Assembly (NCBI RefSeq): GCF_014164505.1
Contig: NZ_JACJFI010000002.1
Coordinates: forward strand, 1-64,000
Direction of reading: 5' to 3'
DNA: 64,000 nucleotides
Source of the DNA: Shewanella sp. SG41-4
GTDB taxonomy: Bacteria; Pseudomonadota; Gammaproteobacteria; Enterobacterales; Shewanellaceae
Both the position numbers and the translations under genes were made by a program. How positions within the stretch are numbered: position 1 is the stretch's first letter; every line of letters begins with the position of its first letter. This document shows positions 41,553 to 49,561 of this stretch, piece by piece. The notes below the pieces were generated by a model. It ran no database searches, was not told the origin of the DNA, and saw only the letters and a program-made list of their open reading frames with translations.

Positions 41553-43448
41553 ATGACAGAAAATAAAAAAGATACTAATAACACTACTAATAATAACAAA
41601 AGCACGACGGATAATTCAGAATCCACACCACAGCAAACGCCGCATCCTTTTGATGCTCACACGCTAATGTGGATAATGATGTTCTTTGCTGCGTATACCA
41701 TTTTTTCGAGTTTTTTTGATTCAACAAAACCAGAAATTTCATATACAGATTTTAAAAAAGCAGTCATTGCCAATCAAGTGTCATCCATCTCTTTCAAAGG
41801 CGATCAAATCTACGGTACCTATAACGTAGGAGGCTCAGACAAACCAAAAATATTCCATACCGTTATGCCTCCTACCACAGACACAAATTTGCTACCTATC
41901 CTTGAAAAAAACAACGTCACTATTTTCGCAAAGTCTTCTGCTGATCCACAATGGCTTTCCATTTTGCTAGGTATTGTTCCTTGGTTATTAATTATTGCTT
42001 TTTTTGTTTACTCAAGCCGAATGTTACAACAAAAAATAGTAGGAAAAGATGGTTTTATGGGCTTTTCAAAGTCTAAAGCTAGGCTGTTTGAAACCAAAGA
42101 CAATGAAATCGGTTACGACGATGTCGCCGGAGTGGAAGGAGCTAAGCAAGACCTTCAAGAAATCATTGATTACTTAAAAAAACCTGGGGAATTTAATAAG
42201 CTCGGTGCAAAAATGCCACGGGGTATTTTATTAATGGGCCCACCAGGAACGGGGAAAACCATGCTTGCAAAAGCCACAGCTCATGAAGCTGGAGTGCCTT
42301 TTTTTAGTATTAGCGGATCAGAATTTATCGAAATGTTTGTTGGCGTTGGTGCTTCTCGTGTTCGAGATATGTTTAAAGAAGCAAGAGATAAAGCTCCAGC
42401 CCTGATTTTTATCGATGAAATTGACTCCGTTGGCCGCGTTCGAGGCACTGGCCTAGGTGGCGGCAATGACGAACGAGAACAAACACTTAATCAAATTCTT
42501 GCCGAGATGGACGGATTTTCAGGCGATGAAGCCGTTGTGGTGTTAGCAGCAACAAATCGCCCTGACGTACTAGATCCAGCACTATTAAGACCGGGGAGAT
42601 TCGATAGAAAAGTGACGTTTGAGTTACCTCAACAAAGCGCAAGAATAAAGATTTTAAAAGTACATACTCGTAAAGTACCGATTGAGTTAAATTTCGATTA
42701 CAAAGAATTAGCCAGCATGACCGTTGGATTTTCTGGTGCAGACCTCGCTAACTTAGTCAATGAAGCCGCACTCTGTGCAGCAAGAAAAAAAGCCGACACA
42801 GTAACAAGAGATGACTTTAATCAAGCCCATGACAAAATTATAATGGGAAGCGAGCGAAAAGATTTATTAAATCCGTCAGAACGAAAAAGAACCGCCGTTC
42901 ATGAAAGCGGACACGCCATCGCAGCATTATTTTTACCCAATAGCGATCCGCTCCGAAAAGTCTCAATCATTCCTCGCGGCCGAGCATTAGGCGCAACAGA
43001 ACAACTCCCCGTTGAAGACCGACACAATTACACCCAATCATATTTACAAACACGATTATCCGTCATGCTAGGTGGGCGCGTAGCAGAAAAAATTGTGTTG
43101 GATGATATCAGTTCAGGCGCATCCAATGACTTAGAACAAGCAACCCACCTTGCCAAAATGATGGTGACTCAATGGGGTATGAGCGACGCCATTGGTCCGA
43201 TTCATTTTAAAGTCGGCTCCGAACATCCTTTTCTGGGCTACGAAATACAACAAGAAAAAGATTTTAGTGAAAAAACAGCTACTATAATTGATCAAGAAAT
43301 TTACAGAATAATAAAAGAAGCAGAACAAACAACGTTTGCCATCTTATTACAACATCGCGACGATCTAAATCAATTAGTTGAAGAGCTACTCAACAAAGAA
43401 ACCTTAGACATTCACATGATTGAAGCAATGCTAAAATCCACAAATTAA
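41553..43448 (+). CDS. ftsH: FtsH-family membrane AAA+ zinc protease, divergent paralogue
   Basis: A 631-residue inner-membrane protease. Order: an Asn/Thr/Ser-rich cytoplasmic tail (1-35), membrane helix 1 (about 38-55), a short periplasmic domain, membrane helix 2 (about 134-155), AAA+ core with Walker A GPPGTGKT (229-236), pore loop [14 protein letters not shown], Walker B LIFIDEID (284-291), and arginine fingers in RPGRFDRK. The protease domain has zinc motif HESGH (450-454) and the third ligand Asp in [15 protein letters not shown]. FtsH degrades membrane and regulatory proteins. The hydrophilic N-terminal extension is unlike the usual FtsH, whose first helix starts almost at residue 1, and no rrmJ/folP neighbours are present, so this is probably a second copy. 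An SPFH partner gene is 7 kb upstream. Confidence 0.92.
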
Positions 43449-43789
43449 CAACAAAATATTTAGCTAACAAACACCCTTCCCTTATACCTGCCATTGATCG
43501 AGTAGCAATAATGGTAAGGGCGTCAGCATATGCTGTGCAACAAACAAGCTTGCTGTTTTCCTCGATAATAAATGCTAAAGGGTGTCGCCACTGCAGTGAG
43601 TCACTTTGATTGTACGGTTTACTGAACAACCTATTTTTTTGTGGGTGTTTTTTTACCGATATAGTAAAAAATGTTAGCTGCTTCGTATTTCCCCATTGTT
43701 GATTGTTGTAAACTCCGCGCCGACAAAGGCTGTGTTGGTAAGAGTAAATTTTACCAGACATGTGTATAACAAATTTGTTTACCACAATA
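43449..43789. other. Gene-free stretch after FtsH paralogue
   Basis: There are 341 bases with no credible frame; a 131-codon minus-strand frame through it lacks domain content and overlaps the ftsH end. A small CACTGCAGTG palindrome lies near 43590. The promoter of the permease transcript must lie here or in the next segment. Confidence 0.35.
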
Positions 43790-43895
43790 CTCGCAGGTCA
43801 CTAACGCAATATGCGCCAAGTGGATCTCTCACCCAATTTTTCTCGTTTGGGGCTCTACCTGCCATAGCCGTGCCGCCAATGAATGACCATTGGTT
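43790..43895 (+). ncRNA. Structured 5' leader of purine permease, candidate riboswitch
   Basis: GCAGGT (43793-43798) pairs with ACCTGC (43857-43862) and encloses two hairpins: CACT...AGTG with an inner CGCA/TGCG stem (43799-43822) and CCCAA/TTTGGG (about 43832-43851). This makes a compact three-way junction. A perfect CCAATG/CATTGG hairpin (43876-43893) follows 38 bases before the start codon. The fold and the purine permease downstream suggest ligand-sensing RNA, but I cannot match it from memory to a named purine or xanthine class. Confidence 0.4.
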
Positions 43896-43931
43896 AACTG
43901 ATAATTTAAGAGATCAAAAGGTATAATATCT

Positions 43932-45290
43932 ATGAAGTCTGAACAGACTCTCTCTAGCTCGACTGCAACTTCTGATTCATTTTTAGACCGCTATTTCACT
44001 ATATCTGCTCGTGGAAGTACCTTAAAACGTGAAGTCATTGCTGGCTTAACGACGTTTTTGGCTATGGTTTATTCGGTGATTGTGGTGCCAAACATGCTAG
44101 GTATTGCGGGATTTGACCCTGCTGCAGTATTTATCGCTACTTGTTTAATTGCCGCATTCGGTTCGTTACTCATGGGACTATGGGCTAATTTACCGATGGC
44201 CATAGGCTGTGCAATATCACTCACCGCATTTACTGCATTTAGCATGGTGCTGGGACAGGGAATATCGATTCCTGTCACTCTTGGCGCTATTTTCCTTATG
44301 GGTATCGTATTTACGCTTGTGAGTGTCACCGGTATTCGTCAATGGGTGCTCACTAACTTGCCAACCGGTATTGCTCACGGAACGGGTATTGGTATTGGTT
44401 TGTTTTTACTGCTTATCGCAACTAACAGCGTTAAATTGATTGTTTCAAACGATGCCGGTTTACCGGTAAAGCTTGGTGATATTAATAGCTTACCGGTTAT
44501 AGCAACAATAATTGGCCTTGCTATGACGATAGGGCTTGAGCGCCGAGGCACCCCAGGTGGCATATTATTGGTGATCGTCGGGCTATCGATTTTCGGGCTA
44601 GTATTTGATCCTAGCGTAACTTATCAAGGTCTATTTGCATTGCCTGACTTGATGTCTGAAACATCGCTAATTGGTCAGCTCGACATTATGGGCGCACTCA
44701 ATCCAGTGGTTCTGCCTATTGTGTTGGCGTTAGTGATGACCGCTATTTTCGATGCCACTGGCACAATTAGAGCGGTTGCAGGGCAAGCGGAACTTCTCGA
44801 TGATAAAGACAATATTGTTGGTGGTGGTAAAGCACTGACATCAGACTCAGTCAGCAGTATTTTTGCAGGCGTGGTCGGCGGCGCCCCGGCGGCTGTGTAT
44901 ATTGAATCGGCTGCAGGAACCGCTGCGGGTGGCAAAACTGGCCTGACCGCGACCATCGTTGGCATACTATTTTTGATGATGATGTTCTTAGCGCCGTTAA
45001 GCTTTTTGGTACCGGCTTATGCTACTGCGCCAGCACTTATGTATGTTGGATTACTGATGCTAAGCAACGTTACCAAACTTGATTTTGACGATAAAGTGGA
45101 TGCTATGTCGGGCCTAACCTGCGCGGTATTCATCATTTTAAGCTGTAATATCGTTACCGGGATTATGCTTGGATTTGTTACCTTGGTTATTGGCCGCATA
45201 TGCAGTGGCGAGTGGCGTAAACTACGACTTGGGGTTATGTTAATTACCCTCGGTTTAGTCGCTTTCTATATGGGTGGCTGGGCGATTTAA
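43932..45290 (+). CDS. NCS2-family purine permease (AzgA-like)
   Basis: A 452-residue inner-membrane transporter with about 13-14 helices. AzgA-like marks are [20 protein letters not shown] and [20 protein letters not shown], then [20 protein letters not shown] and [20 protein letters not shown]. These carry the substrate-site residues of hypoxanthine/guanine/adenine permeases (the ESAAG and FDATG loops). Purine specificity within the family cannot be told. AAAGG precedes the ATG by ten bases. A structured leader suggests ligand-dependent expression. A terminator follows. Confidence 0.9.
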
Positions 45291-45854: not shown

Positions 45855-47360
<1,506 letters not shown>

Positions 47361-47396
47361 CCATGGGTAAATAAACAGACCAACAAGGATTGTAAA

Positions 47397-47807
47397 ATGC
47401 TATCAGCACACATGAACCTTAAAATTTTGCTGCCCTATAAGGTTTTTGCCCAGCTGCAACATGTGGTGCGCATTGTTGCTGTTACGCCTCAAGGTTCGTT
47501 TGGTATCTTGCCACATCGACTTGACTGTGTGGCGTCATTAACTGCTGGGTTACTGGTTTATGAGTGTGAGGGCGCAGATGAAGTCTACGTTGCTATTGAT
47601 GAAGGTGTACTAGTTAAAACAGGCTTTGATGTAGTGATTTCGGTGCGTAATGCGATTGGTGGTTTGGTGTTGAGCGACTTGCACCAAGCTGTTAAACAAG
47701 AATTTATGCACCTCGATGAACAAGAACAACAACTGCGTTCGGTGCTGGTCAAAATGGAAAGTAATTTCATGCGCCGCCTGACTGACTTTCACCATGACAG
47801 GCCCTAA
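47397..47807 (+). CDS. atpC: N-type ATPase, epsilon subunit
   Basis: A 136-residue F1 epsilon subunit. The N-terminal beta sandwich is seen (MNLKILLPYKVFAQLQHVVR, then VTPQGSFGILPHRLDCVASL and VYVAIDEGVLVKTG), followed by a helical tail (HLDEQEQQLRSVLVKMESNF). The GSFGILP loop is the family signature. It couples F1 rotation to the c-ring. AAGGATTG precedes the ATG. It is the second gene of the operon, 36 bases after atpD, as expected for N-ATPases. Confidence 0.9.
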   Translation: MLSAHMNLKILLPYKVFAQLQHVVRIVAVTPQGSFGILPHRLDCVASLTAGLLVYECEGADEVYVAIDEGVLVKTGFDVVISVRNAIGGLVLSDLHQAVKQEFMHLDEQEQQLRSVLVKMESNFMRRLTDFHHDRP

Positions 47808-47809
47808 CT

Positions 47810-48202
47810 ATGAATAATAAATCAGAGGAAGATATCACCCCAGAAAAATCAAATTCTGAATCATTAAATTCTGAATCATTAACGCCTGAAAAAAATACGT
47901 CCAACAACCAAAAGTTTAGCCAGCAAGTTGATGACATGGCGACACGAAAACTAAAGGCGCAACGACATATTAACAAAACAGTATGGACCGGTTTTGGGAT
48001 GATGGGGCTTATTGGTTGGTCGGTGGTGATCCCAACGGTGCTTGGTGCCGCACTCGGCATTTGGTTGGATGAACACTATCCAGGTGAACACTCAAAAACC
48101 TTAATGTTACTGATTATTGGTTTATGCCTTGGGTGTTTTAATGCATGGCATTGGGTTGATAAAGAAGACAAGGAAATTCATCGAGATGATGAACTTGATT
48201 GA
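47810..48202 (+). CDS. atpQ: N-type ATPase accessory AtpQ (AtpI/gene-1-like)
   Basis: A 130-residue protein with two membrane helices (TGFGMMGLIGWSVVIPTVLG and MLLIIGLCLGCFNAWHWV). They fit the ATPase gene-1/AtpI family, thought to help c-ring assembly. In N-ATPase operons this position is AtpQ. The N terminus is variable and carries an exact 15-bp duplication that encodes NSESL twice (47851-47880). It starts two bases after the atpC stop. Confidence 0.85.
   Translation: MNNKSEEDITPEKSNSESLNSESLTPEKNTSNNQKFSQQVDDMATRKLKAQRHINKTVWTGFGMMGLIGWSVVIPTVLGAALGIWLDEHYPGEHSKTLMLLIIGLCLGCFNAWHWVDKEDKEIHRDDELD
47851..47880 (+). repeat. 15-bp exact tandem duplication inside atpQ
   Basis: AAATTCTGAATCATT is present twice in a row (47851-47865 and 47866-47880), in frame, so it adds five residues to the cytoplasmic N terminus of AtpQ. 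It is one of several such expansions in this operon. Confidence 0.95.
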
Positions 48203-48209
48203 CTTTGCA

Positions 48210-48413
48210 GGCAACTTATTGCTGAAAAGTCAGTTGATACTACATTTGTTGATAGAAAAGTAGATGATAAAAAACGCATGATGGTGAATCAATTTAGGGC
48301 AACTTATTGCTGAAAAGTCAGTTGATGGCAATTTAGTTGATGGAAAAGTACTTGATAGCAAAGCGCTTGATAAAAAAGTACTTAATAGAAATTTACTTGA
48401 TGGAAAAGTGGTT
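48210..48413 (+). repeat. Direct repeats and degenerate 15-mers between atpQ and atpR
   Basis: A 29-bp sequence starting GGCAACTTATTGCTGAAAAG occurs at 48210-48238 and again, exactly, at 48298-48326. From 48327 to the atpR start is a series of degenerate 15-base units. In the atpR frame they read as VLDGK/VLDSK/ALDKK/VLNRN/LLDGK-like pentapeptides and continue into the first residues of AtpR (MENLLVDN). There is no usable start codon upstream of 48408 in this frame. The other N-ATPase junctions in the operon are only 1-90 bases. Confidence 0.85.
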
Positions 48414-48770
48414 ATGGAAAACTTACTTGTAGACAATATATTTGTAGAGCTCGCATTGGTATTACTGGCTGGTGTATTGCTAGGGGTGTTTTTTTTCGCC
48501 GGACTTTGGTGGACGGTTAGCCAGCTAAAATCGACTCGCCATGTTGCGTTGTTATTTATCTTCAGTCTGCTATTTCGCTCCACCATAGTGATCGTTGGAT
48601 TCTATTTTATTGCTGGCGAAAACTGGCATCGTCTATTGGCAGGATTACTCGGATTTATGTTAGTTCGCCTCTTGGCAACGCGATATACCCTGCAGCAAGA
48701 GCAGACTCCGTCATTGGGAAAAACACTCATAGTCGACAAAATAGTCGATAAACAAGAAGACAGCTTATGA
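48414..48770 (+). CDS. atpR: N-type ATPase accessory membrane protein AtpR
   Basis: A 118-residue inner-membrane protein with three predicted helices: ELALVLLAGVLLGVFFFAGL, then HVALLFIFSLLFRSTIVIVG, then LLAGLLGFMLVRLLATRYTL. The conserved arginine in FRSTIV and in VRLLATR, plus position between atpQ and atpB, fit the AtpR family, proposed to interact with the c subunits. The ATG at 48414 is used; GTG at 48408 is possible. The coding N terminus joins a degenerate 15-bp array. It overlaps atpB by four bases. Confidence 0.85.
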   Translation: MENLLVDNIFVELALVLLAGVLLGVFFFAGLWWTVSQLKSTRHVALLFIFSLLFRSTIVIVGFYFIAGENWHRLLAGLLGFMLVRLLATRYTLQQEQTPSLGKTLIVDKIVDKQEDSL

Positions 48771-49561
48771 ACCTTAGCCCTGACCAAATAATTTTCTGGC
48801 AAATGAGCTTTGTTAAGCTCAACGCCACGATTGTATTTACCTGGGTAGTGATGCTGCTACTGGTGGTGGGTTCAATCCTGATTACCAGAAAATTATCTAA
48901 GGATATGCAGCGTTCTCGCTGGCAAAATTTGCTGGAAGTTGTCGTCATTACCATCAGCCAACAGATTGAAGAGGTTGGTCTGAATAATCCTCATAAATAT
49001 CTTGGATTTCTCGGCTCGTTATTTTTGTTTATTGCCATCTCCGCCATCTGTACGGTGATCCCCGGCTTCGAACCGCCTACGGGTTCACTTTCCAGTACTG
49101 TGGCTTTGGCGTTATGTGTATTTGTAGCAGTACCGATGTTTGGTATTGAGAAGCAAGGCTGGCGCGGCTACCTAGCCACCTACACCAAGCCAACTGCCAT
49201 TATGTTGCCATTTAACCTTATCAGTGAAGTGTCGCGGACGCTGGCCTTAGCGGTGCGGTTGTTTGGCAACATGATGAGTGGCGTGATGATTATCGGTATT
49301 CTACTGAGTATTGCCCCCTTTTTGTTTCCAATCGTAATGACACTGCTGGGTTTACTCACCGGCATAGTACAGGCCTATATATTTTTTATTTTGGCAACCG
49401 TTTACATCGCTGCGGCTACGCGCATTCAACGACCTGAGCACGAACTAGCACAAGATAGTTCTGCCACTACGCAGCAACATGATACAATGCCAGCTCCTGA
49501 GCTATGGGCTAATAGCTACGAACGAAGAGCTATTAGCTATGGGCTACGTACTTTGTGCTAG
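48767..49561 (+). CDS. atpB: N-type ATPase, F0 subunit a
   Basis: A 264-residue F0 a subunit with about five to six helices. The essential stator arginine is R164 in LALAVRLFGNMMSGVMI, and the last helices show PIVMTLLGLLTGIVQAYIFF. It forms half the ion channel with the c ring. Residues from about 243 are unusual (LWANSYERRAISYGLRTLC) and are encoded by a repeat block at 49499-49560, so the C-terminal tail appears to have been extended by repeat growth. The ATG overlaps the atpR stop. An 85-base spacer of similar repeats follows before atpE. Confidence 0.92.
   Translation: MNLSPDQIIFWQMSFVKLNATIVFTWVVMLLLVVGSILITRKLSKDMQRSRWQNLLEVVVITISQQIEEVGLNNPHKYLGFLGSLFLFIAISAICTVIPGFEPPTGSLSSTVALALCVFVAVPMFGIEKQGWRGYLATYTKPTAIMLPFNLISEVSRTLALAVRLFGNMMSGVMIIGILLSIAPFLFPIVMTLLGLLTGIVQAYIFFILATVYIAAATRIQRPEHELAQDSSATTQQHDTMPAPELWANSYERRAISYGLRTLC

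Follow-up and report, generated by a model that had tools for sequence, protein, structure and literature searches.

The leader of a purine permease gene in Shewanella sp. SG41-4, at about positions 43720-43931 of the window (the whole 64,000-nucleotide stretch of DNA that was analysed), is a real, conserved, cis-acting RNA of an unlisted class. It is very plausible that this RNA is a riboswitch, and likely that its ligand is a purine. The full reading that we favor, with reasonable confidence, is of a translational riboswitch, from a class outside Rfam 15, that would sense a metabolite and turn the permease off (OFF) and whose likeliest ligand would be guanine, hypoxanthine or a close purine.

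Gene context of the leader

The gene directly 3' of the leader encodes an NCS2 purine permease, as identified by profile search (PF00860, E = 8.5e-72); this assignment, together with a resemblance to GhxQ and GhxP, bears out the original prediction that the gene is a purine transporter. Among E. coli DNA matches to the permease, the best ten listed were all ghxQ (approximately 68% in DNA over 88%), a gene that lies after guaD and xanQ in E. coli. An annotated GhxP shares 70.8% protein identity with the window permease, the S. frigidimarina permease is 98% identical to it, and NCBIfam returned no name for any of the four permeases tried. Because of the homology to GhxQ and GhxP, the substrate is likely guanine or hypoxanthine.

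Elsewhere at the locus, the gene directly upstream (41553-43448) encodes an FtsH-like membrane protease (Peptidase_M41, AAA and FtsH_ext) with an Asn/Thr-rich N-terminus. An operon at 45906-49561 resembles an alternative F-type ATP synthase, with a beta-subunit-like ATPase (PF00006) followed by small frames, one of them a-subunit-like as judged by eye only.

The features of the leader and its gene are as follows.

43709..43714, + strand: -10-like hexamer TAAACT of a presumed promoter; the Shewanella leaders compared have similar hexamers some 5-6 nt ahead of the 5' element
43728..43734, + strand: P0 5' strand GGCTGTG, pairing with 43863-43869
43793..43798, + strand: P1 5' strand GCAGGT; 3 of 6 pairs have changes on both sides
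43799..43822, + strand: P2 hairpin, closed by CAC (43799-43801) and GTG (43820-43822), with variable interior; third pair C-G, U-G or U-A
43823..43831, + strand: junction strand J2/3, GATCTCTCA, nearly invariant; its first 7 nt complement 43909-43915
43832..43851, + strand: P3 hairpin, CCCAA (43832-43836) with TTGGG (43847-43851); double changes in 4 of 5 pairs
43852..43856, + strand: junction strand J3/1, GCTCT, nearly invariant
43857..43862, + strand: P1 3' strand ACCTGC, from RNAalifold and covariation on model matches
43863..43869, + strand: P0 3' strand CATAGCC, directly after P1
43876..43893, + strand: optional linker hairpin CCAATG/CATTGG, in the window and several relatives
43909..43915, + strand: AGAGATC, complement of GATCTCT in J2/3 (43823-43829) and kept in relatives; candidate pseudoknot or alternative-pairing strand
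43918..43921, + strand: Shine-Dalgarno (SD)-like AAGG, by sequence and position
43932..45290, + strand: NCS2 purine permease, GhxQ/GhxP-like, from PF00860, the E. coli ghxQ matches and the identity to ghxP

Structure and covariation

Folded as a single sequence, the window element is not unusually stable (z = -0.84; 37 of 200 shuffles matched or exceeded its stability), nor is the full stretch up to the start codon (z = -0.57). The lone fold being unremarkable, the case for the junction rests on relatives. We aligned 20 leaders from outside the window's clade with MAFFT, and RNAalifold returned precisely this junction. Its 14 pairs, 6 of them changing on both sides, fall in the three helices already drawn from the sequences. 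In this alignment 99.3% of cells are paired, and 30 cells are changed on both sides against a shuffle mean of 11.0. Because its rows had to fit a pattern requiring the conserved letters, letter conservation within it is partly a product of selection.

A covariance model (R1) built from the 20 leaders, with the window excluded from training, gave the window a score of 63.5 bits, with E = 2.5e-16 when its own genome was searched. We then used R1, which places no demand on conserved letters, to collect a larger alignment: 94 sources were chosen from more than 200 loci (many of them same-genome repeats), and 75 matched, 67 of them distinct. Here, too, pairing holds in 99.3% of cells, and 8 of the 14 pairs show double changes, counts that lean towards R1 because the rows were fitted to it, and that include the diverged or decaying leaders L165, L149 and L081. 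None of 500 shuffles reached the covariation score, and sliding the partner strand along lowered pairing to 31-51%. A quick permease tree of 56 genes placed 9 pair-type changes in P1, 3 in P2 and 21 in P3, and a few of these led to unpaired states.

The two unpaired junction strands of the RNA are nearly invariant. J2/3 reads GGATCTCTCA in 65 of the 67 distinct matches to R1 (73 of 75 rows), and GGCTCT precedes the 3' side of P1 in 63 of 67 (71 of 75 rows). The P2 and P3 loops vary in both length and letters, and J1/2 is 0 nt long. The ortholog leaders show near-identical islands between freely varying stretches.

The junction is itself enclosed by an outer helix, P0, which begins at 43728 and makes the conserved unit larger than the span first proposed (43790-43895). 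Its 5' element was spotted by complementarity and only afterwards located by its letters. All seven pairs form in 45 of 47 distinct rows, including such variants as GGCCATG/CATGGCC and GGCTGCG/CGCAGCC, the exceptions being L091 (5 of 7 pairs) and L153 (6 of 7). In total 326 of 329 P0 cells are paired, a value reached by none of 2000 column shuffles, and the tree carries 28 pair-type changes in P0, a few to unpaired states. Because the -10-like hexamer lies upstream at a nearly fixed distance, P0 is probably close to the 5' end of the RNA, with a transcript start that we would place near 43718-43722.

The original prediction of GCAGGT/ACCTGC enclosing two hairpins thus holds at the positions first given, and these elements are conserved and covary in relatives. 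Covariation among relatives had also been named as a test of the proposal; when it was run, four helices (P0, P1, P2 and P3) were found to covary. A conserved, structured 5' leader with covariation, as is generally expected of a riboswitch, is therefore present.

A conserved partner strand near the ribosome-binding site

AGAGATC, just before the SD-like motif, is exactly complementary to the opening 7 nt of J2/3 in 68 of 69 distinct leaders. The gap between this strand and the motif is 0-7 nt in 67 of 68 leaders (in L093 the motif was not located), and the spacer from P0 to the strand ranges from 10 to 59 nt. L081 carries a double change, GTTCTCT in J2/3 with AGAGAAC downstream, and is the sole covarying example. 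The lone exception to complementarity is L165, where changes affect J2/3, J3/1 and the downstream strand alike. The isolated 7-bp duplex of J2/3 with AGAGAUC is calculated at -7.9 kcal/mol.

This strand (43909-43915) and the 5' strand of P0 both fall outside the span first proposed, which therefore does not describe the whole unit. The CCAATG/CATTGG stem that had been proposed as the switch is present in the window; it is not a conserved switch element, as 21 of the 68 leaders with a located downstream strand have only 10-12 nt separating it from P0, too little to hold the stem.

Distribution of the leader RNA

A search with the leader and its flanks (E <= 0.001) gave matches in 61 of 97 Shewanella genomes, many of them only short conserved stretches. 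With R1 at E <= 0.01, 80 of 148 Shewanellaceae genomes were matched, 79 of them strongly (E < 1e-7). All 79 strong matches lie before the same permease and on its strand, at distances of 32-145 nt from the permease match. An ortholog of the permease (at least 79% identity) is present in 90 genomes, and the RNA in 80 of these, counting one (G071) in which it was found separately; the other ten ortholog leaders had no R1 match at E <= 0.01. Among the 148 genomes, those lacking the ortholog gave no strong match.

Searches with R1 at the level of order (394 genomes; 13 Shewanella and two weak matches), class (369 genomes; the window's genome only) and phylum (398 genomes; two matches, both Shewanella) gave no strong match at another gene or in another genus; because they sampled part of each group with stricter filters, distant forms could be missed. 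Weak matches at 21.7-23.6 bits (G125, G022:C1, G341 and G163) were set aside as chance: none is at a permease ortholog, and those in G022:C1 and G341 lie inside reading frames. A viral contig with the core pattern was likewise rejected, since it scored 11.3 bits (E = 0.74) and the match fell within a long reading frame, and blastn of the leader against the plasmid collection gave no match.

Several individual copies are unusual. Long extra sequence is accommodated inside P3 in L160 (409-534; G118) and inside P2 in L015 (1589-1704; G053), with the junction letters intact in both. Two copies are apparently decaying: L149 (463-535; G014), in which J3/1 is deleted, and L165 (132-213; G149), with its altered J2/3, J3/1 and SD-side strand.

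Comparison with known RNA families

No Rfam 15 family matches the window leader, even at a permissive threshold of up to E = 10, and Rfam searches of ten other loci gave six matches (E of 1.8-7.7), all far below gathering scores. The suggestion of a possible new class agrees with this result, as does the statement that the leader is not a canonical purine riboswitch: searched up to E = 10, the leader held no RF00167 match, and hence none at that model's gathering score of 37 bits.

Like the leader, RF00167 (guanine, adenine and variants) is a three-way junction associated with purine-related genes. The leader differs in having no nucleotides between P1 and P2 and in its junction letters. RF00167 is recognized by kissing P2 and P3 loops and conserved junctions, a combination that the leader lacks; because its P2 and P3 loops are variable, it has no constant loop-loop contact. 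No RF00167 member was found in the window's whole genome (with stricter filters). Elsewhere, 20 of 60 Shewanella genomes carry RF00167, several with a second copy. These canonical purine riboswitches of Shewanella (L252-L271) were followed by adenosine deaminases in all five cases in which the downstream protein was tested. Rodionov and co-workers (PMC3223726) list eight known riboswitch families in Shewanella, and place adenosine deaminase and a purine transporter under the purine riboswitch there.

The xanthine-type riboswitch NMT1 (RF03054), raised as a possibility in the original prediction, is likewise associated with purine-related control in proteobacteria, and is described as a two-stem bulged hairpin (PMC7373994). 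The leader instead has three covarying stems around a three-way junction and lacks the two-stem architecture and the conserved bulge letters of that type; because no Rfam family matches, assignment to this type is unsupported.

The position of AGAGATC recalls preQ1-II, preQ1-III and SAM-II, whose SD-proximal pseudoknots pair a strand before or in the ribosome-binding site with the aptamer core. The leader resembles them in that an SD-adjacent strand complements its core, and differs in its P0-P1-P2-P3 layout and its conserved letters. In the article text that was searched, including PMC11109978, PMC2864571 and PMC9295807, we found no published description of this RNA.

Proposed mechanism and alternatives

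Nearly invariant, unpaired J2/3 and J3/1 strands and a complement on the SD side together make up the anatomy of a translational riboswitch. We propose a three-way junction of P0, P1, P2 and P3 in which GAUCUCUCA and GCUCU, both pyrimidine-rich, are the likely binding core, and further propose that AGAGAUC near the SD can pair with GAUCUCU of this core. When ligand is abundant, the bound junction and the crossing helix would exist together, crowding the SD 2 nt downstream, and less permease would be made; when ligand is absent, the AGAGAUC strand would be free and translation could go ahead. We favor the OFF pseudoknot because the gene encodes an importer. The likeliest ligand would be guanine or hypoxanthine, or a close purine such as xanthine or a guanine nucleotide; gene associations cannot narrow this choice because the RNA precedes one gene only. 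The ten of 90 permease orthologs without the RNA count against the riboswitch reading.

The direction of control could be the reverse. In nested ensembles of 71 leaders, J2/3-AGAGAUC competes with P1/P0, with a mean P1 probability of 0.48 and a mean SD unpaired probability of 0.54; because nested folding is split across species in this way, the two pairings may be alternatives. The same RNA could then be wired ON, the ligand stabilizing P1/P0 and freeing both AGAGAUC and the SD. L084, L105 and L177 are among the species that lend themselves to such wiring, with P1 probability near 0 and with J2/3 and AGAGAUC both paired. We nevertheless consider it unlikely: the window ensemble favors P1/P0 (0.92/0.98), the crossing geometry is also feasible, and plentiful purine would be expected to shut off a purine importer. 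Counting in turn against the OFF reading, AGAGAUC in the window is predicted to be engaged largely in other pairs (0.21 unpaired), and the SD to be only 0.31 unpaired even when the crossing helix is left out.

As ligand binding by the leader is itself our proposal, a protein regulator or RNA chaperone could take the place of the metabolite, and protein-binding leaders restricted to a single gene and genus do exist. An RNA whose loops vary while its junction strands hardly change looks like an aptamer, however, and the families absent from the window leader in Rfam include protein-binding leaders, so that we rate this explanation lower still. Stable hairpins close to the start codon would fit a structure that is no more than a passive element for stability, temperature response or the tuning of translation; those same nearly invariant unpaired strands would then be unexpected, and we judge this reading improbable. 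The most remote is a DNA operator, in which GATCTCT and AGAGATC form an inverted repeat for a transcription factor: their inverted complementarity fits, and a purine regulon with an unknown factor has been inferred in Shewanella (PMC3223726), but the spacing of the two halves differs widely among leaders, both sit well 3' of the -10-like box, and four helices covary as RNA.

Regulation of the permease in and outside Shewanella

Using a consensus that we take to be that of the PurR box, and allowing up to 4 mismatches, we found PurR-like boxes in 24 of 35 ortholog leaders from outside Shewanella, in none of the shuffled leaders, and in none of 46 Shewanella leaders, whether they carry the RNA or not. 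The PurR regulon is reported as missing in Shewanella by Rodionov and co-workers (PMC3223726). PurR-like boxes in other genera and a structured RNA before most Shewanella orthologs suggest a regulatory swap.

A more specific version of the preferred riboswitch reading, which we put forward tentatively, is that PurR control in Shewanella gave way to a new class of riboswitch, with no relation to RF00167, for guanine, hypoxanthine or a close purine, and that its pyrimidine strands may clasp the GAGA of AGAGAUC. We speculate that both pyrimidine junction strands could lie on GAGA beside the ligand in a triple helix (U.A-U / C.G-C); CUCU of J3/1 fits GAGA in parallel, and L008 and L081 break this register. 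If true, this would be another independent RNA solution for purine sensing, at one gene of one genus, and a rare class of the kind missed by family surveys.

Two leaders of one Shewanella lineage, L098 (2954-2990) and L243 (509-545), are without the junction RNA and keep the region of the P0 3' strand and AGAGACC before the SD; L243 (G027) is one of the ten ortholog leaders that lack the RNA.
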